Positions 2,446-23,864 of a stretch of 24,423 nt of DNA are shown here, piece after piece. The notes beneath the pieces are model-generated. The model worked only from the letters and a program-made list of their open reading frames with translations, had not been told where the DNA came from and searched no databases. The position numbers were made by a program, and so were the translations under genes. The stretch is from a virus. The number at the start of each line of letters is the position of its first letter. The first letter of the stretch is position 1. The stretch spans positions 1 through 24,423 of the IMG/VR virus record IMGVR_UViG_3300012923_000208. One strand, given 5' to 3'.

Positions 2446-2913
2446 CTACTTGAACGGAATTGCCAGGCCACCGCCGGGCAAGCCCTTCGCGCCGTAGGCC
2501 GCGGCATCGAGCATGAACTGCGCGACAAGCAGCTTGCAGTCGGCGGGCACTTGAATCCCGCCCCCCTGCGCGCCCTTGAGTTGCTGCGCGCGCACGTAGA
2601 GCACGGAGCCGAGGGAGATGAGGTCGCTGATCTTCGGCGTGAACGACGAGCCCGCCGGCGCCGGATTGGCGGGGTCGAGGCCGAGCTGGGTCAACACCGC
2701 ATGGAAACACCCGGGCGCCGGATCGCTTTTCGGCAGGGCGCCGACCGCGACGGCCTGGTCGAGATCGTACGTGGCATCGAGCAAGCCCTGGACGACGACC
2801 TTCCCGAGATCCGTCTTCGCGGCGGTGGTGGTGATGTCCGCGGCCGGATTCCCGCTCAACGTCTGGCACGACGTGAGCGCGAGCGCCCACGCGAGGACGA
2901 GCCAACGGGTCAT
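2446..2913 (-). CDS. Putative phage lipoprotein, 155 aa
   Basis: The N-terminus MTRWLVLAWALALTSCQ is a lipoprotein signal peptide with lipobox LTSC; Cys16 would be lipidated and anchored in a membrane. The rest is a mixed helical domain with two further Cys residues (PGCFHA, ADCKLL). It overlaps the preceding small membrane protein gene as ATGA and sits a few genes after the endolysin. That position suggests an outer-membrane spanin subunit, but at 155 aa it is longer than usual for an o-spanin and has no obvious Pro-rich stretch. The lipoprotein call is firm; the lysis role is inferred. Confidence 0.62.
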   Translation of the reverse strand: MTRWLVLAWALALTSCQTLSGNPAADITTTAAKTDLGKVVVQGLLDATYDLDQAVAVGALPKSDPAPGCFHAVLTQLGLDPANPAPAGSSFTPKISDLISLGSVLYVRAQQLKGAQGGGIQVPADCKLLVAQFMLDAAAYGAKGLPGGGLAIPFK

Positions 2914-3254
2914 GCGGTCTCCCCAAGCGCCGGGTGTAACACGACGCAGTCATGAACGCTCGACGTCGGACAGCGGAGCTCGCCGACCATGCCCCAGAAG
3001 CGGCGCACGCGGTCGAGGCGCGCCGCTCGGAGCGGCGCGGGCCCCTCGAGGGCCCACTCGAGCGTCGGCACGAACCCGGGCAGCGCCCGCGGCGCGACCG
3101 GCGTGACGGCGGACGCGGGCCCGGGGAGGGGGCTCGCGACGACGCCGGGGGTGACGGGCCCTGCGCCGCGAGACGTCGCGACGAGGCTGGACACACCGGC
3201 CGCACCCCCGAGGAGCACGCCCACGCTGACCCAGAACGCCCACGCGGGTCTCAT
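2910..3254 (-). CDS. Small membrane-anchored protein in the lysis cassette, 114 aa
   Basis: Residues 5-27 form one hydrophobic N-terminal segment (AFWVSVGVLLGGAAGVSSLV). A Pro/Ala/Val-rich linker follows to about residue 60, then a short charged domain with RAARLDRVRRFWGM. Two Cys residues lie near the end (LRCPTSSVHDCVV). The gene overlaps the holin candidate upstream and the lipoprotein downstream, both as ATGA. An inner-membrane spanin partner of the lipoprotein is possible from position, but the coiled coil expected of an i-spanin is not evident. Function remains open. Confidence 0.55.
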   Translation of the reverse strand: MRPAWAFWVSVGVLLGGAAGVSSLVATSRGAGPVTPGVVASPLPGPASAVTPVAPRALPGFVPTLEWALEGPAPLRAARLDRVRRFWGMVGELRCPTSSVHDCVVLHPALGETA

Positions 3255-3460
3255 GGATGCGGCACCGGCGGCGTCGCCATGAGCGCTTGGAGGCGCCGGC
3301 CGCCGGCCACCAAGCCGGACACCAGGGCCAGGATGAGCGCGGCGCGCGGCGGCACTTGCGTCGAGCCCGAGCCGACCATCGCCGCCGTGTAGGCGGCGCC
3401 GCCCGAAATGAGAAAGTCGGAGAGAAAACTGACGAACAGGGTGAGCAGGTAGGGCGTCAT
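3251..3460 (-). CDS. Putative holin, two transmembrane segments, 69 aa
   Basis: A very hydrophobic small protein. TM1 spans roughly residues 4-30 (MTPYLLTLFVSFLSDFLISG and onward) and TM2 roughly residues 40-54 (ALILALVSGLVAGG). It ends in a short basic/proline tail. Size, topology and position directly after the lysozyme gene fit a holin that would let the endolysin cross the inner membrane. The ATG at 3460 is 4 nt from the endolysin stop. The holin could alternatively be the one-TM protein at 3898-4176, or the two could act as holin and antiholin. Confidence 0.55.
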   Translation of the reverse strand: MTPYLLTLFVSFLSDFLISGGAAYTAAMVGSGSTQVPPRAALILALVSGLVAGGRRLQALMATPPVPHP

Positions 3461-3464
3461 GGGG

Positions 3465-3896
3465 TCACACCCACCGATCCTCTCGGAGCTGGATCGCGAG
3501 CCGGTGGGCGCGCCCAGCGGTCTCGGTGTTCCGCGCGTAGTCGCTCGCGAGGAGCTCGTCCGCGGCGCGCTCCCACTCCCCATCCAGCAGGTGCCCGTGC
3601 ATCTTGCGGAACCCCAGCATCCCGTGCAGGCCGAGCTCGTAACAGAGGCTCATGACCACGCCCTGCCGCGGGATCGACAGCGCGCGGAAGAAGGGGAGCG
3701 TCTCGCAATCGGACGCGCAGGCGCGTTCGTCGTTCGCGAGCAGGTACTCGGCCTCGTCCTTGGAGACGCCGCGCGTGAGCGTGTTGCGCCCGTAGCCGAT
3801 CACGTGGCCGACCGAGTCGGACCGCTCCGTAATCGCCAGCCCCTCTTCGCGCCGCATGAGGCTCTTGAAATCGGTGACCGCCGGTGGTTCGCGCAT
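3465..3896 (-). CDS. Endolysin: GH24 / T4-type lysozyme-like muramidase
   Basis: A protein of 143 aa that should cleave the glycan strands of host peptidoglycan at lysis. The N-terminal catalytic region reads LMRREEGLAI, then SDSVGHVIGYGRN, then GVSKDEAEYLLANDE. This is the GH24 order: catalytic Glu in REEGL, Asp in the loop, the IGYGRN strand, and the family helix SKDEAEYLL. A second lobe follows (GVVMSLCYELGLHGMLGF, then GEWERAADELL). The usual Thr of T-I-G-Y-G is Val here, and the Asp-to-IG loop is one residue shorter than in T4 lysozyme. The ATG at 3896 lies 1 nt after the upstream TAA. Neighbours on both sides are small membrane proteins, giving a lysis cassette. Confidence 0.8.
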   Translation of the reverse strand: MREPPAVTDFKSLMRREEGLAITERSDSVGHVIGYGRNTLTRGVSKDEAEYLLANDERACASDCETLPFFRALSIPRQGVVMSLCYELGLHGMLGFRKMHGHLLDGEWERAADELLASDYARNTETAGRAHRLAIQLREDRWV

Positions 3897-3897
3897 G

Positions 3898-4176
3898 TTA
3901 CGGCTTCTTTTTCTCTTTCTCTTGTCGGATGCCCTCGACAATGCCGGCCGCCGTCGCGGACGCCGTCGCCTCGGCCGTCGCTTTCGTTGACGCGATCAAT
4001 TGCTCGACGAGGCGATCCGTCGCCCCGTTCACCGTCTCGGCCACGAGGTCCACCTTCCGATTCGTGTCATTGAGTTTGGTGCTATTGCGGATCGACGTGA
4101 TCAGCGTCGCTAACGCCGTGACGAATCCGGCGAGGGCCAGGATCGTGGCCGGAAGATTGGACCAAAAGTCGTGCAC
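3898..4176 (-). CDS. Small membrane protein, holin-like, 92 aa
   Basis: One N-terminal transmembrane segment at about residues 9-28 (ATILALAGFVTALATLITSI) is followed by a long amphipathic helix (TNRKVDLVAETVNGATDRLV), an Ala/Thr-rich helix and a Lys-rich tail (EKEKKKP). Similar one-TM plus helix proteins with an ETVNG motif often precede phage lysozymes and are annotated as holin-like or XhlA-like. The start is a GTG at 4176, supported by AGGAAGG upstream. It is adjacent to the endolysin. A holin or spanin-type role is inferred from position and topology. Confidence 0.6.
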   Translation of the reverse strand: MHDFWSNLPATILALAGFVTALATLITSIRNSTKLNDTNRKVDLVAETVNGATDRLVEQLIASTKATAEATASATAAGIVEGIRQEKEKKKP

Positions 4177-5018: not shown

Positions 5019-5180
5019 TCAGTCCTCCTCGGCTTGCAGGGCGATCCCATGCATGTCGATCACCGGGCCGAGGCGATCGTCGTGGACGTCGTAGGAGTAG
5101 TGGCCCGCCTCCAGTTTCTCCTGGATCTCCTCGTACACCGCCGCGGAGACCCGGAGGATCACGTAGGAGTGGTGGCCCAT
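5019..5180 (-). CDS. Conserved-looking small protein, 53 aa
   Basis: This 53-aa frame fills the gap between the 5181 and 4757 genes exactly. It begins MGHHSYVILRVSAAVYEEIQ and ends with VIDMHGIALQAEED. The sequence is well structured (a beta strand, a helix containing EEIQEKL, then GHYSYD and an acidic tail). I recall similar short phage proteins ending in IDMHGIAL. The ATG at 5180 directly abuts the TGA at 5181-5183. Its last codons provide the AGGAGGA ribosome binding site of the next gene. Function unknown. Confidence 0.62.
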   Translation of the reverse strand: MGHHSYVILRVSAAVYEEIQEKLEAGHYSYDVHDDRLGPVIDMHGIALQAEED

Positions 5181-5519
5181 TCACTTGCCCCGCCGGATGA
5201 CCCACGGCGCGAGGATCGCAAACCCCGCCATGATGGCCGCCCGTTCCCAAGTGGGGTTGCGCATGGCGAACGCGGCGAGCGTGACGGTACACCCGAGCGC
5301 GGCCCAGCGGAGAGCCCGGTCGCAGAGCAGCTCCACGATGGGCTCAAGCACCTTGGCGGTGTCCAGCAGCATGACGGCGATGCCGGCCTGGCGCTGTTCC
5401 CGTCGCGTGGTGCGGATCTGCTCCTCGACGGCCTCGAGGTGGGCGCGGTCCTCCGCCGAGGTCTCGGGCGGGATCACCTCGGACCCGTTGCCATGGGGGA
5501 CCGCGTGGAGATCCCGCAC
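5181..5519 (-). CDS. Small membrane protein with C-terminal TM hairpin, 112 aa
   Basis: The N-terminal half is charged and helical (SAEDRAHLEAVEEQIRTTRR, a possible coiled coil). A hydrophobic hairpin at about residues 70-108 follows (RWAALGCTVTLAAFAM, then RAAIMAGFAILAPWVI), with a basic RRGK end. The start is a GTG at 5519, one base after the upstream TAG, with a poor ribosome binding site, so coupling is likely. The topology would suit a holin or another phage membrane protein. It lies several genes away from the lysozyme. Confidence 0.55.
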   Translation of the reverse strand: MRDLHAVPHGNGSEVIPPETSAEDRAHLEAVEEQIRTTRREQRQAGIAVMLLDTAKVLEPIVELLCDRALRWAALGCTVTLAAFAMRNPTWERAAIMAGFAILAPWVIRRGK

Positions 5520-5520
5520 C

Positions 5521-5886
5521 CTAGGGGCTCTGGACTACTTTCGGGTGGATCAGGTGGTCCGCCTCGCCATCGAGATGCCAGGTCCCGGGGGCCCCGCTGG
5601 GGTCCCAGGGGGCGCTCGTCTCGTGCGTCTGTCGCTGGGAGACGGCGCGGGCCTTGTCGTCGGGGTCGCCCGGCGCGGGCTTGGGGGAGTCGTGGCCGAG
5701 GAAGACGTGGGTGTCATCGGCCGTGGCGTACTCGAGATGCGCAAACTGCCGCACCCCCTGAGGAGTGCGGACGCTCTCGTTGATCCCGTCGGAGAGCAGG
5801 CGCGCCGGCCGGGCCACGGTTTCGCCGGGGCGGACGTACCACACGGGCTGTCCGGTATGCAATTCCACGACCTCGGGCTCTGCCAT
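5521..5886 (-). CDS. Hypothetical protein, 121 aa
   Basis: Begins MAEPEVVELHTGQPVWYVRP with a run of short beta-like segments, then a His/Asp-rich C-terminal half (GTWHLDGEADHLIHPK). AAAGGAG lies just before the ATG at 5886. It follows the GT-C-type membrane protein gene with a 2-nt gap, so it is part of the same mRNA. No family is recognised; a small soluble beta-domain protein is the most I can say. Confidence 0.58.
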   Translation of the reverse strand: MAEPEVVELHTGQPVWYVRPGETVARPARLLSDGINESVRTPQGVRQFAHLEYATADDTHVFLGHDSPKPAPGDPDDKARAVSQRQTHETSAPWDPSGAPGTWHLDGEADHLIHPKVVQSP

Positions 5887-5888
5887 GG

Positions 5889-7352
5889 TCAGGGCTCCTT
5901 TCCCAATTCCGTTAAGAGTATGCGGGCCCGCTCCAGATGATTCTTTTCGACTGGAATCCCGCGAGCGACGACCGGCACAGCCTCGACAAAGATCCGAAGT
6001 TCCCGCCGGGCGTTTTCACGCTGCCCCGACGCGAGTAAGACGGTGGCGAGGTTCCAATGCCGTTCCCATCGGGGAACGAGCGTCGTGTCTGAAATTGCGA
6101 TCGCATGCTCGAGATACCGGCGCGTCTGCACGAGATCACCACGCTGATAGGACTGAAATGCGGCGGCATCCTGGCAGACGGTGCACGTGACTTCATGCTC
6201 CGCCGCGTAGGCCCAGAGCGTCTCATCATTCCGCCACATCGGCATGTGCACAAGCGTCACGACGCTGAACGCGGCGACGACCACGGCCGCTCCGGTGGGC
6301 GCCATCCGAGGGAAGCGCCGTGACGCCCGCGTCAGCCCCGCGCCCGCAAGGAGAGCGAGAGGCAGACACGCGAGATAGCTGTAGCGGTTGGCGACGAGCT
6401 GCGGGCCGTTCTGGAAGAGTCCCGCCTGTGGAAACACCGCGACCGCGTACCCTATCAGCGCTGCCGTCAAGCCTGGCCACCACCGCCACGTGAGGACACA
6501 TAGCGATGTCGTAAGGACCAGGATCGCGACGGCAATCGGATACTGCGGTTGCCCCCAGGACGGGACCCAGGTGTATTCGATCAGGTGACTCAAGCGCCCG
6601 GGCCAGAGCGTTTGCCGGGCGTAAAACACCTCGCTATAAGCGATCTGTAGCAAGCGGGGTCCGAGTCCGACAGTGGCCCACGCCGTGCTATTGCCCAGGA
6701 CGTGCAGGGCGCGGAAGGCAATCACAGACAGCACCACTGAGACGGCGAAGAATGGTGCTAGCCGCTTCCACAGGTGCGAGGGGACTCGACCCGTGCGCCA
6801 CCACTCAAGGCAGAGGAGCAGCACCGGCAATGTCACCGCCAGCGAATGCGATAAGCCAGCGAGCAGAAAGGCTCCGAAGGCGAACCCCCGTCGCTCTGTG
6901 AGCCAGAAGAGCACGGCGACGAGCAGCCACGTCGTCATGAGCAGTTGCCGAAGTTCGGTGATGAAGACCACCGATTCCAGACGGAGCGGATGCACGGCGA
7001 AGAGCAGCGCGGCGGCGAGGGGCCCGAGTTGGCCCTGCTGGATCAGCCGGCGCGCGATCACATAGACGAGAACGGCATTCCCCGCATGCAAGAGCACGTT
7101 GACCGCGTGCCACCCGCCTGCATGGAGACCCCACAGATGGTACTCCGTGTTGATGACGAGCCACGTCAACGGAATCCAGTGGCCGAAAAAGATATTTTGC
7201 GTGATCCAGACCCAGGACCATTCCCGGATGATGGGGTTCGACACGATGGCGGGCCCGTCGTCCCACTTGAGGAGGAAATCATAGCGGAACGCTGGCGCAA
7301 AGACGGCGCAGGCGACAACAAAGACAAAGAGAACCGGGAGCGAGCGTCTCAT
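5889..7352 (-). CDS. GT-C-fold multi-TM glycosyltransferase-like protein with C-terminal TPR helices (TMTC-like)
   Basis: A protein of 487 aa with about ten transmembrane segments. TM1 (residues 5-22) leads into YDFLLKWDDGPAIVSNP, where the Asp pair (31-32) is where GT-C and TMTC-type O-mannosyltransferase relatives carry their catalytic acidic motif. Further family landmarks are WHAVNVLLHAGNAVLVY (81-97), HPLRLESVVFITELRQLL (121-138), VANRYSYLACLPLALL (320-335) and MWRNDETLW (372-380), then paired helices like TPRs (383-487). Such enzymes move sugars from polyprenyl-phosphate carriers onto proteins or glycans on the outer side of the inner membrane. The ATG at 7352 overlaps the upstream stop as ATGA; a longer frame to 7562 overlaps the upstream gene and is unlikely. 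Substrate and activity are unknown. A host-derived surface-modification cargo gene is inferred. Confidence 0.72.
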   Translation of the reverse strand: MRRSLPVLFVFVVACAVFAPAFRYDFLLKWDDGPAIVSNPIIREWSWVWITQNIFFGHWIPLTWLVINTEYHLWGLHAGGWHAVNVLLHAGNAVLVYVIARRLIQQGQLGPLAAALLFAVHPLRLESVVFITELRQLLMTTWLLVAVLFWLTERRGFAFGAFLLAGLSHSLAVTLPVLLLCLEWWRTGRVPSHLWKRLAPFFAVSVVLSVIAFRALHVLGNSTAWATVGLGPRLLQIAYSEVFYARQTLWPGRLSHLIEYTWVPSWGQPQYPIAVAILVLTTSLCVLTWRWWPGLTAALIGYAVAVFPQAGLFQNGPQLVANRYSYLACLPLALLAGAGLTRASRRFPRMAPTGAAVVVAAFSVVTLVHMPMWRNDETLWAYAAEHEVTCTVCQDAAAFQSYQRGDLVQTRRYLEHAIAISDTTLVPRWERHWNLATVLLASGQRENARRELRIFVEAVPVVARGIPVEKNHLERARILLTELGKEP

Positions 7353-7639
7353 GAGTCCGGCTCGTCCAACGCCGTCCCCTCGGGCCAGCAGCCGAGCCAG
7401 GTCCCTTTCTCGGCAATCGGAGGTGAGCCAAAGTGCTTGTCGAGAAGCGCAGGGGTGACATCGTACCACTTTGAAAATCCGACCTTGGGCCGCCCCGTGA
7501 CGGCCTTGAGTTTCGCTCGGCACTCGCTCGCGGGCACGGGCCCGGCCTCTTGCCGCCACCACAGCGTGCCATCGCTGGAGGCATGCTGAGAGAGCACGAT
7601 GAATCCACAGAACGCGATTGAGTACAAGCGAGAGCGCAT
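7349..7639 (-). CDS. Small exported protein, 96 aa
   Basis: The signal peptide is MRSRLYSIAFCGFIVLSQHA. The mature part has two Cys (ASECRAKL, LGCWPEG) that could form one disulfide, and several Trp. It resembles small periplasmic proteins of unknown function. The ATG at 7639 overlaps the upstream stop as TAATG, and its own stop overlaps the GT-C gene as ATGA, so it is firmly part of the glycosyltransferase-like cassette. Whether it assists that membrane protein is unknown. Confidence 0.58.
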   Translation of the reverse strand: MRSRLYSIAFCGFIVLSQHASSDGTLWWRQEAGPVPASECRAKLKAVTGRPKVGFSKWYDVTPALLDKHFGSPPIAEKGTWLGCWPEGTALDEPDS

Positions 7640-7881: not shown

Positions 7882-8388
7882 TCAGGGAGCGACGTGCCAG
7901 CACGCGGTCAGGAACTGAAAGGTACTCGCCTGCGCCGTTGGGCCAACGATCGTGGGCGCGGTTCCCGCCAGGCTCTTGATCGGAATCGCGAGCACGCCGG
8001 TCAGGCCTGGAACGGACGTGACGGCTCCTGGCAGCGCGGCGGCAGTCCCACTGTTCGCGGCGCCATTCGGAGCGGGCCAGGAAGGCGTGCCAGAAATGTT
8101 GGTGGTGGTGACGGTCACCGCGGTCGCGGAGGTGGTGTTACCCGCCGTGGTGAAAAGAGCCGCGTTGATGTAGTCGAAATAGATCGAGTTCGAGCCACCG
8201 GGAGCGGGCACCGTGATGGTCTGCTGCGCGGAGCTGGTACCGTTCGCCGAGAGACACGACTGGGCGGCCAGGCCGGTTGAGCCGGTCTGGGTGGTGGCGG
8301 CACCGGGGGACGCCTGCTGAGCGAGCGCGGCGACCGGGATACCGAGGGCCAGGACGAGCGCGAGTGCTACGCCGAGAAACCTCTTCAT
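7882..8388 (-). CDS. Exported beta-rich hypothetical protein, 168 aa
   Basis: The signal peptide is MKRFLGVALALVLALGIPVA, with likely cleavage after ALA. The mature chain is Thr/Ser/Ala/Gly-rich, with alternating hydrophobic strands (QQTITVPAPGGSNSIYFDYI, ATAVTVTTTNISGTPSW), and has two Cys (AAQSCLSAN near its start, LTACWHVAP at its end). It looks like a secreted beta-sandwich. GGGAGACAGAATC precedes the ATG at 8388. It is one of several such exported proteins in this late region. No catalytic motif is seen. Confidence 0.62.
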   Translation of the reverse strand: MKRFLGVALALVLALGIPVAALAQQASPGAATTQTGSTGLAAQSCLSANGTSSAQQTITVPAPGGSNSIYFDYINAALFTTAGNTTSATAVTVTTTNISGTPSWPAPNGAANSGTAAALPGAVTSVPGLTGVLAIPIKSLAGTAPTIVGPTAQASTFQFLTACWHVAP

Positions 8389-8427
8389 GATTCTGTCTCC
8401 CTTCTGTTGGTGGTACTGCATGGCCCT

Positions 8428-9051
8428 CTAGCAGCCACCAGGGCCGCCTGGGAACGCGAGGAGCGTGGAGTAGGGGATCGGCGTCGTCGCGAGGTTCGCG
8501 TAGCCGTGGAAATTCGCCAAGTTCGCATCGACCTGGAAGCCGGAGGCCGCCGGGACGACGGGGATGATGAACTCGTTGCCGAAGCTATTCCCCCCGGCGA
8601 TCACTAGTACACAGGTGCCCGCCGGCCCCCGGCGCACGCGCAGGGTCGCGCCCTGCATCAGGGGACCCGAGGGCGCGACACTGTCCGGCGTGGTGGAGAG
8701 CACGAGATCCCCCGAGCCGAGGAGCTGGACCGGGGTGCCGACGGGCGCGAGGGCGAGGCCATTGGCGAACGTGCCGGCGGCCAAGCCCTGAAAGGCGAGG
8801 GTCCCGGAGATGACCATGTTGCCCGTGGTGGGATCGACGGTGGTGCCCGGCGCGCAGTTGAATCGGCCCTGCGAGTCCGAGACCTGAATGCAGTTCAACC
8901 CCCCGCGGAATGGATGCCAAACATCAGGAGGCACCGAGGACTGGGCCTTCACCTGGGCAAGAGTGTGAAGCGGGAATGGCGGTATCCCCGGAGCCCAATC
9001 TATGGCGAGGACGACCAATAAGGCGAGCGAGACTCTCAGGGTCATCCTCAT
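8428..9051 (-). CDS. Exported protein with N-terminal hydrophobic segment, 207 aa
   Basis: Begins MRMTLRVSLALLVVLAIDWA, a signal peptide or anchor. The remainder carries PGTTVDPTTGNMVISGTLAF, typical of phage tail-fibre-like repeats, and a C-terminal part with ATLRVRRGPAGTCVLVIAGG and a Gly/Pro end. AGGAGGGACAGCGC sits before the ATG at 9051. That ATG overlaps the stop of a tiny leader ORF as ATGA. It is the first full gene after the promoter-like element at 9090-9130. As with the other exported genes here, the mixture of signal peptide and fibre-like sequence is unusual. Function unknown. Confidence 0.6.
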   Translation of the reverse strand: MRMTLRVSLALLVVLAIDWAPGIPPFPLHTLAQVKAQSSVPPDVWHPFRGGLNCIQVSDSQGRFNCAPGTTVDPTTGNMVISGTLAFQGLAAGTFANGLALAPVGTPVQLLGSGDLVLSTTPDSVAPSGPLMQGATLRVRRGPAGTCVLVIAGGNSFGNEFIIPVVPAASGFQVDANLANFHGYANLATTPIPYSTLLAFPGGPGGC

Positions 9052-9130: not shown

Positions 9131-9445
9131 CTATTTTTCCTTGGTGGGGGGCTTGGGCGCCTTGAGGGCCTCGATTTCCTTGGCCTGCTCGGCGATCCGC
9201 GCCTGCGCCTGGCTCAAGAGCGTCTTGGCGAGGGACAGTTGATCCTCAAGGTATTGCCGATAGTCGCGGAGATCGTCCACCATCGTTTGCAGGCAGGTCA
9301 GGGACGCCTTGCACAGGACCACCGGCTTGGGGTCCGCGGCGCTGGCCGCGCCGGCCCACAGCACCAGCGCGGCCAGCGTAAGTTTTCCTTTGGCCAGTAG
9401 CCAAGAATGAGGACCACCCCCTTGCACGCTAATCGGTCGGCGCAT
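9131..9445 (-). CDS. Exported coiled-coil protein, 104 aa
   Basis: Residues 17-36 form a signal sequence or membrane anchor (AKGKLTLAALVLWAGAASA). Two Cys follow (VVLCKASLTCLQ), then a long heptad-like helix (DYRQYLEDQLSLAKTLLSQA and QARIAEQAKEIEALK) and a Lys/Pro tail. The ATG at 9445 overlaps the upstream gene by 17 bp; no better start is visible in frame. A periplasmic coiled coil would suit a spanin-like or envelope-contact protein, but it lies far from the endolysin. Function is uncertain. Confidence 0.52.
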   Translation of the reverse strand: MRRPISVQGGGPHSWLLAKGKLTLAALVLWAGAASAADPKPVVLCKASLTCLQTMVDDLRDYRQYLEDQLSLAKTLLSQAQARIAEQAKEIEALKAPKPPTKEK

Positions 9446-19405: not shown

Positions 19406-19708
19406 CTAGCCGATTTTGATGGTGACGACGTTTTGGTTGCCGCCGCCGGCGTTGCGGAAGCGGACATCGACGCCGTCGGAGCAGAACAGGCCCGGCGACA
19501 CGCCCGCCGCGGCCGGGGCATTCCACACGCCGCTGTCGTCGAGCACCTCGAAGACGACGTTGGCGCCGAGGCCATAGGCGTAGAAGAGGCCCGCGGCGGG
19601 GATGAACGCGCCGCCCGCGCCGGGCACAATGACGGTGGTGAGCGCCTTGCCAAAGATCGAGCCCGAGAGCCCAGTGGCGATCCCGGTCGGAACGAAATCG
19701 GTGCCCAT
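19406..19708 (-). CDS. Small structural protein, possibly decoration, 100 aa
   Basis: A compact, mostly beta protein starting MGTDFVPTGIATGLSGSIFG with ALTTVIVPGAGGAFIPAAG and ANVVFEVLDDSGVWNAP. It ends QNVVTIKIG. It lies close behind the capsid gene, a common place for head decoration or head-completion proteins. The AAGGAG of its ribosome binding site is inside the last codons of the homing endonuclease gene, 9 nt before the ATG. No family is recognised; the decoration role is inferred. Confidence 0.5.
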   Translation of the reverse strand: MGTDFVPTGIATGLSGSIFGKALTTVIVPGAGGAFIPAAGLFYAYGLGANVVFEVLDDSGVWNAPAAAGVSPGLFCSDGVDVRFRNAGGGNQNVVTIKIG

Positions 19709-19709
19709 G

Positions 19710-20228
19710 TTAGGTCAGCTCCTTCCTGCGGGCACGAGCGATCCGCGTCCGCTCTCGATGCTTGGCGAGATGCTCGGGGTCCTTGTAGTAGCGTCGGAAG
19801 TAGTCCCTGCGGCACTCGCCGCACTTCTTGAGCGGCTTGAGGACCCCATGGGCGCACGGCGGAGCGTAGCGATTGTGTGGCCGCGACGGTCCTCCCTGCG
19901 TGAGCACGAGACGGAATTGCTCTCGTTTCTGCGGAGAGAGCCACGGCCAGAGCATTGCGCAGATCGCTTGGACTTGAGGATGGCCAGCCGCCCTGTAGTG
20001 GAGAATCGGCTGCCCGCCATATTGACCGCGCTGGTAGGGACCGTAGATCTTTCCGATTCCAACGGCCTCAGCGAATCTGTCAAGAACCCAGCGATCCACT
20101 TGGGTGACATCGAGTACTGGGCAGCGACCACGGTATCCCTTTCGATTGGCGAAACTTCCGACGTGGCCCTCTCCATTGAAGAGTCCTGCGGCACAGGCAA
20201 GCGCTTCTCTGTTCGGTATGAATCCCAT
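19710..20228 (-). CDS. LAGLIDADG-type homing endonuclease, free-standing, 172 aa
   Basis: Residues 11-24 (ACAAGLFNGEGHVGSF) form the LAGLIDADG helix and its Gly-Glu-Gly active-site end, as in variants reading AGLFDGEG. One motif implies a homodimer that cuts a long DNA target. A C-terminal basic part holds CAHGVLKPLKKCGECRRDYF and YYKDPEHLAKHRER, which may bind zinc and DNA. The capsid gene upstream is uninterrupted, so this is a free-standing element rather than an intron ORF. Its composition is visibly less GC-rich than its neighbours. It lies in the capsid reading frame, separated by one TAG and eight codons, and has a weak ribosome binding site. Confidence 0.68.
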   Translation of the reverse strand: MGFIPNREALACAAGLFNGEGHVGSFANRKGYRGRCPVLDVTQVDRWVLDRFAEAVGIGKIYGPYQRGQYGGQPILHYRAAGHPQVQAICAMLWPWLSPQKREQFRLVLTQGGPSRPHNRYAPPCAHGVLKPLKKCGECRRDYFRRYYKDPEHLAKHRERTRIARARRKELT

Positions 20229-22907: not shown

Positions 22908-23864
22908 CTAGACGAGCCCTAGCTGCGCGGTCCGCTTGTAGGCCATCGCGCAGTATTCCGGCTTGAGTTCGAGCCCGACGAACCGCCGGCCGAGGCGCTG
23001 GCAGACCAGCCCGACCGTGCCGCTGCCGGCGAAGGGGTCGAGGACCGCGCCACGTTCCGGGGTCCCGGCCAGCACGCAGGGCTCCACCAGCGCCTCGGGG
23101 AAAGTGGCGAAATGGGCCTCTGGGTACGGCTGGGTCGCAATCTCCCAGACGGAGCGGCGGTTACGCGTGCCGTTTAGAGACCCATGCGTCGCCGCGGTGG
23201 GCATTGGCAGAGACGAGACGAAAGGATCGTCGCCGAGCCTGACGAGCGAGCCGGCGCGGTTGCCGTGCTGATGCACTGACGGCTCCGCTATTGAGCGCGC
23301 GTCGTAGTAGTACCGCTCGCACTTCGCCAGCAGGAAGAGGTACTCGTGCGCCTTCGTCGGCCGATCCGTCACGCTCTCGGGCATCGGGTTCGGCTTGCTC
23401 CACACGATGTCCGAGCGGAGATACCAGCCGTCCGCCTGGAGGGCGAAGGCGACGCGCCACGGGATGCCGACGAGATCCTTCGGCTTGAGGCCAGGTGTGT
23501 GCTTCAGGCTCCCAGTTCCGTTGCCGCCCAAAGGATGTGCAAAGATCTGCCGAGCCGACAGCATGGAGGATCCTTCAAGGCGTGACGAGGCCTCGCTTGT
23601 CGTGTCGCCACGAGATTGCGCGCCCCACGACCCGGCGTAGGAGTCCCCGAGGTTGAGCCAGCACGTCCCGTCATCGCGCAGCACCCGCCAGACCTCGCGG
23701 AAGACGACCACCAGGGCGGCCACGTACTCCTCCGGCGTGCGCTCGAGGCCGAGCTGGCCCATGACGCCATAGTCGCGCAGGCCCCAGTAGGGAGGGCTCG
23801 TCACGACGCAGTGGACGGACTGGTCACGCAGCGGGATGGATCGGGCGTCGGCGTTGATGATCAC
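22908..23864 (-). CDS. DNA methyltransferase, beta class (N4-cytosine or N6-adenine)
   Basis: A protein of 318 aa that should transfer a methyl group from S-adenosylmethionine to a base in DNA. The catalytic motif IV is VVTSPPYWGLRDYG at residues 20-33 (SPPY, more common in N4-cytosine enzymes). The AdoMet-binding motif I is DPFAGSGTVGLVCQRLG from residue 276, followed by RRFVGLELKPEYC. Motif IV before motif I defines the beta class, with the target-recognition region between them. The GTG at 23864 is the best start; the ribosome binding site is weak. No restriction enzyme gene is adjacent, so it is probably an orphan enzyme protecting phage DNA from host restriction. Confidence 0.82.
   Translation of the reverse strand: MIINADARSIPLRDQSVHCVVTSPPYWGLRDYGVMGQLGLERTPEEYVAALVVVFREVWRVLRDDGTCWLNLGDSYAGSWGAQSRGDTTSEASSRLEGSSMLSARQIFAHPLGGNGTGSLKHTPGLKPKDLVGIPWRVAFALQADGWYLRSDIVWSKPNPMPESVTDRPTKAHEYLFLLAKCERYYYDARSIAEPSVHQHGNRAGSLVRLGDDPFVSSLPMPTAATHGSLNGTRNRRSVWEIATQPYPEAHFATFPEALVEPCVLAGTPERGAVLDPFAGSGTVGLVCQRLGRRFVGLELKPEYCAMAYKRTAQLGLV

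Follow-up and report, generated by a model that had tools for sequence, protein, structure and literature searches.

A probable TMTC-like GT-C membrane protein encoded within a phage structural and lysis operon

The gene described here sits inside an operon of phage structural and lysis genes, and its product is very probably, judging from homology, a TMTC-like relative of the GT-C glycosyltransferases. The window, by which we mean the whole stretch of DNA that was analysed, is a linear IMG/VR virus record of 24,423 bases and represents a fragment. Taken as a whole, the explanation that we favour, and hold tentatively, is that of a periplasm-facing accessory GT-C enzyme which would use a host lipid-linked sugar, with exported phage proteins as its likeliest acceptors.

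The open reading frame runs on the minus strand from 7352 to 5889, with an ATG at 7352 and a stop at 5891-5889, and encodes 487 amino acids; every window gene that could be placed lies on this same strand. Its surroundings are best read beside a second phage contig, L002 (VBJV01000138.1), a 7.1-kb sequence found inside a public Chloroflexi MAG bin:

8428-9051, minus strand: exported protein, no function assigned; homologue at the same place in L002
7882-8388, minus strand: exported Ser/Thr-rich protein, 28% Ser+Thr after the signal, candidate acceptor; 48% identical in L002
7639-7860, minus strand: small conserved gene, no function assigned; homologue at the same place in L002
7349-7639, minus strand: small protein with a signal-anchor-like N-terminus, overlapping the GT-C gene; 52% identical and at the same place in L002
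5889-7352, minus strand: 487-aa predicted membrane protein of the TMTC-like GT-C type; core at about 1-370, tail with TPR-like helices at about 388-487
5521-5886, minus strand: conserved gene directly downstream of the GT-C gene; homologue in L002
5181-5519, minus strand: conserved downstream gene, one predicted membrane helix; homologue in L002
4757-5050, minus strand: conserved downstream gene, no function assigned; homologue in L002

The upstream gene (7639-7349) and the GT-C gene share an ATGA overlap, and on the other side 2 nt separate the GT-C stop from the start of the next gene at 5886; both junctions, pointed out in the first-pass annotation, are present in the window. GC content by codon position is 0.66/0.47/0.76, and the neighbouring genes are alike in this respect. 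The phage genes of the window include a portal, present as its C-terminal part and homologous to the annotated portals of two circular phage genomes, a major head protein that matches phrog_9953 (E 4e-20), tail genes, and a Phage_lysozyme above its Pfam cut-off. That the GT-C gene lies among phage genes, as had been claimed, is thus borne out both by the portal, head, tail and lysozyme genes around it and by the same block in L002.

Elsewhere in the window, positions 2446-3941 form a lysis-like cluster in which a lysozyme is accompanied by small membrane proteins and by a lipobox protein, a putative spanin pair. A DNA methyltransferase gene (N6_N4_Mtase, 22908-23864) lies between the portal end and the genes preceding the head protein; the sequence available for 80 head-protein relatives contains no homologue of it. 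A 172-aa gene (19707-20228), flanked by the head protein and a head/tail gene, resembles, by eye, a homing-endonuclease-type insertion; its product has no Pfam match, and a homologue is present in 1 of the 80 head-protein relatives (L070).

The eight genes listed above correspond to eight consecutive genes of L002, with the order kept. The GT-C proteins are 51-53% identical and their neighbours 33-52%, which puts the GT-C gene roughly level with the best-conserved of them. In L002 it also overlaps the gene upstream, there by GTGA, and the downstream 2-nt gap of the window is not preserved. Between the two GT-C genes pS is 0.655, with dS near saturation, and pN is 0.326 (0.31 in the membrane core), giving a pN/pS of about 0.5, uncorrected; the lower pN shows that the gene is under purifying selection. 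A search of the MAG bin of L002 did not recover the remainder of this phage, and the head and tail proteins of the window are also unmatched there; the MAG label of L002 is no evidence of host. A few genes downstream of its GT-C gene, L002 encodes a 493-aa exported Ser/Thr-rich protein (5126-6607) that may be fibre-like; the match of its C-terminus to K1-lyase_C is very weak (E 0.025).

Searched directly, the window protein gives nothing above noise in Pfam, PHROGs, NCBIfam, PADLOC or the PDB sequences, and its family is seen through intermediates. A genome scan with it returned one relative, the L002 protein (51% identical), while a profile of both phage proteins reached full-length Chloroflexota homologues, G126, G159 and G175, whose frames span 766-897 aa. 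Both phage proteins align with these nearly end to end at about 30% identity; hhalign gives a probability of 99.9% (E 1e-37, 434 columns), and blastp scores 141 bits against a maximum of 38 among 400 locally shuffled sequences. Among the three bacterial homologues the Pfam scan covered G126, which exceeds the cut-off of PMT_2, the dolichyl-phosphate-mannose-protein mannosyltransferase model (34.4 bits vs 26.1), and carries about six TPRs. In the same type of scan neither the window protein nor that of L002 matches PMT_2 (PF13231), and both score below the TPR cut-off. DUF1736 (PF08409), the TMTC segment between TM7 and TM8, is absent at E up to 10 from P0002 and G126, and is not matched by P0001 at E up to 1. 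As DUF1736 and a clear DW motif are lacking, we do not class the protein as a TMTC in the strict sense. These alignments nevertheless lead us to regard the phage protein as a descendant of bacterial TMTC-like PMT_2-TPR proteins, with a shortened TPR tail. Of the original TMTC/GT-C-type designation, then, the relationship to PMT_2-TPR proteins stands by way of intermediates, and a PMT, DUF1736 or PHROG match of the window protein does not; the HMM search that had been proposed yields nothing from that protein directly, whereas its homologue G126 passes PMT_2. The label of O-mannosyltransferase was too strong, there being no direct family match and the EL2 RxD and EL3 Lys being replaced.

Structure prediction speaks to the two parts of the protein differently. 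The window protein has 10-12 hydrophobic segments, a number that varies with the threshold, and its membrane core was modelled from the few sequences available with a pLDDT mostly under 50; its GT-C fold is therefore assigned by homology. The tail (about 388-487) is modelled confidently; about 90 of its residues superpose to about 2.1 A on peptide-binding domains of the TPR type, with Z-scores of a size common for helical repeats. The fold look-up covered only residues 351-487 and returned no GT-C chain. The TPR-like helices noticed at first reading are backed by this confident C-terminal part.

Seven ligand-site motifs have been defined in TMTCs, in which the Asp of the EL2 RxD and the EL3 Lys correspond to the ArnT pair that makes a salt bridge at the acceptor site (PMC7801869). 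We placed these motifs, by position and pattern, on an alignment of five sequences (the window protein, L002, G126, G159 and G175):

7257-7262, minus strand: Asp31-Asp32, DD motif (M1) in the first outer loop; invariant in 5/5 sequences
6945-6953, minus strand: Leu134-Arg135-Gln136 at the EL2 RxD site (M3), replaced; R-K-D in L002 and bacteria
6846-6848, minus strand: His169 at the site of the conserved EL3 Lys (M4), replaced; Lys in L002 and bacteria
6375-6389, minus strand: Asn322-Arg323-Tyr324-Ser325-Tyr326 at the M7-like (ERxxY, EL5) site; Arg and Tyr kept

The DD motif comes after the first membrane helix, and the EL1 histidine is kept as H58; Asp31-Asp32, HPLRLESV (121-128) and ANRYSYL (321-327), the landmarks named at first reading, are all found in the 487-aa product. 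On the acceptor side, Asp has become Gln and Lys has become His, and the Arg of the RxD is changed as well. The replacement of the Asp and Lys partners together, in one lineage, would mean either an acceptor shift or a loss of catalysis, and altered specificity or lost catalysis are both possible for the window copy. With the RxD/Lys pair replaced, we think that the acceptor choice of the enzyme has probably shifted, and we consider it reasonably likely that the protein is still active as a glycosyltransferase.

Could the window copy instead be a non-catalytic membrane protein of GT-C descent, serving in structure, as a chaperone-like factor or in the timing of lysis, such that only relatives like L002 may be active? 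This is one of two serious rivals to the favoured explanation, and we judge it unlikely. It would account for the replacement of both acceptor-side partners and of the RxD Arg, all of which L002 keeps, for the Asn found in both phages in place of the acidic residue of M7, and for the location of the gene among lysis genes; however, the DD, His58, Arg323 and Tyr326 are retained, and purifying selection extends over the gene, its membrane core included.

GT-C enzymes use polyprenyl-linked sugars and act at the membrane's outer face, and the likely acceptors are for this reason exported molecules. Under the accessory-enzyme explanation, the gene would encode a member of the GT-C/PMT clan that spans the inner membrane several times and is reduced to a membrane core and a short TPR tail. 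Expressed late, it would work at the outer face of the inner membrane, moving a sugar to an acceptor there from a polyprenyl-phosphate donor made by the host; the TPR tail, facing the periplasm, would keep a peptide acceptor in place. Within the window no synthase for a polyprenyl-phosphate sugar was recognised; the donor would have to come from the host. The likeliest acceptors would be exported phage proteins of the same operon, such as the Ser/Thr-rich 7882-8388 product, and it is quite possible that the main acceptor is an exported phage protein.

Signal peptides, called by a simple hydropathy rule on N-termini, are suggested for at least six window proteins (1181-2184, 7349-7639, 7882-9051 and about 9131-9433), in addition to the lipobox protein at 2446-2913; this number of exported proteins is large for a phage of such size. 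For those scanned, neither Pfam nor PHROGs gives a function. Three products (1184-1783, 1783-2184 and 7882-8388) contain 24-28% Ser+Thr after the signal, and for the exported set overall the Ser/Thr enrichment is not significant (p 0.10). The signal-peptide neighbours of the GT-C gene are conserved in L002, where the 7882-8388 product, encoded three genes upstream, keeps its signal. A bolder version of the accessory-enzyme explanation, and in our view a doubtful one, is that the phage carries a module for protein glycosylation, in which a pared-down TMTC-like enzyme is encoded in a late operon alongside exported Ser/Thr-rich acceptors of its own, and the RxD/Lys pair has been re-specified between related phages.

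The second serious rival would direct the enzyme at the host surface. Here the sugar would be added to an envelope polymer in the manner of Gtr, perhaps blocking superinfection or keeping released virions off debris. Such enzymes use GT-C folds and outer-face polyprenyl-phosphate donors, surface modification by phage genes is common, and the GT-C gene is accessory among relatives. Yet the closest homologues are of the protein-type PMT_2-TPR kind and not Gtr, no gtrA/gtrB-like partner was recognised among the window proteins scanned (from a record that is a fragment), and a late operon with lysis genes would leave little time for surface conversion, all of which makes this alternative improbable to us. 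The weakest alternative, that contig assembly joined a bacterial gene fragment to phage DNA, could appeal to a gene type that is otherwise bacterial and to scans that found no further copy among viral contigs, but the caveat of chimerism in the first-pass annotation is answered by L002, an independent contig in which the same eight genes follow in order, the GT-C gene central among them, comparably diverged and with a stop/start overlap, which indicates long residence in the phage and leads us to reject a chimera as extremely improbable unless both assemblies contain the same error.

The gene is accessory among related phages. An alignment-based scan with the head protein identified 584 of 600 candidates as relatives, and 80 of these were retained; a single-sequence scan with the head protein found nothing. 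The GT-C gene is absent from the 20 IMG/VR records searched whole, as well as from two circular INPHARED genomes, and the records without it include twelve of 31 kb or more. The closest head-protein relative among those kept, L063 (78%), ends before the GT-C region. Scans of viral contigs for the GT-C gene, for its parts and for its upstream neighbour returned no relative, the pattern scans being non-exhaustive: the degenerate HPL[HR][VIM]ESVAW pattern finds L002, G126, G159 and G175, which served as the positive control, and would miss the window's own variant. A tblastn search of 50,697 phage and 72,556 plasmid records with both phage proteins and the bacterial core gave only one weak Haladaptatus fragment, and no further phage-type copy was found in 301 Chloroflexota phylum-set genomes or 110 class-level genomes. 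As to the host, a diderm is hinted at by the lipobox protein (2446-2913) that neighbours the lysozyme.

This gene adds a type of membrane glycosyltransferase that is rarely seen in phages. The acceptors of bacterial TMTC-like proteins are poorly known, and a phage operon with few exported proteins offers a small set of candidates; likewise, two sister genes of which one has naturally lost the Asp-Lys pair provide a ready-made test of the pair's role. TMTC-like proteins are already known in bacteria and eukaryotes. Our partial coverage of the literature contained no precedent for a TPR-bearing TMTC-like gene in a phage, and for phage GT-C, GT39 and TPR glycosyltransferases it contained one (PMC5705922), in which a dolichyl-phosphate-mannose-protein mannosyltransferase-type gene lies beside phage structural genes in marine viral contigs. 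The co-location is shared with the window gene; in the parts of that paper available to us, the description includes no TPR-bearing member and no conserved operon, and on this description the marine genes are set apart.

Serotype-converting Gtr proteins are, like the window protein, phage-encoded multi-span enzymes, and are thought to use outer-face lipid-linked sugars. They come with gtrA, a flippase, and gtrB, a donor synthase, beside the transferase, whereas neither partner was recognised among the window proteins scanned; no sequence relation of the window protein to them was found. Human TMTC1-4, compared by published motifs only, share the plan of a GT-C-type core with C-terminal TPRs, together with the DD, the EL1 His and the Arg/Tyr before a late membrane helix; the window copy differs from them in having no DUF1736 match, clear DW motif, RxD or Lys. 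Nearest of all stand the bacterial PMT_2-TPR proteins G126, G159 and G175: these are longer (766-897 aa, with about six repeats in the scanned G126, against 487-507 aa and a short TPR tail in the phage versions) and have the RxD and Lys that the window copy is without, but they are like the phage proteins in the DD, GH..P, HPL..ESV and R..Y sites and in the TPR tail that follows the core.
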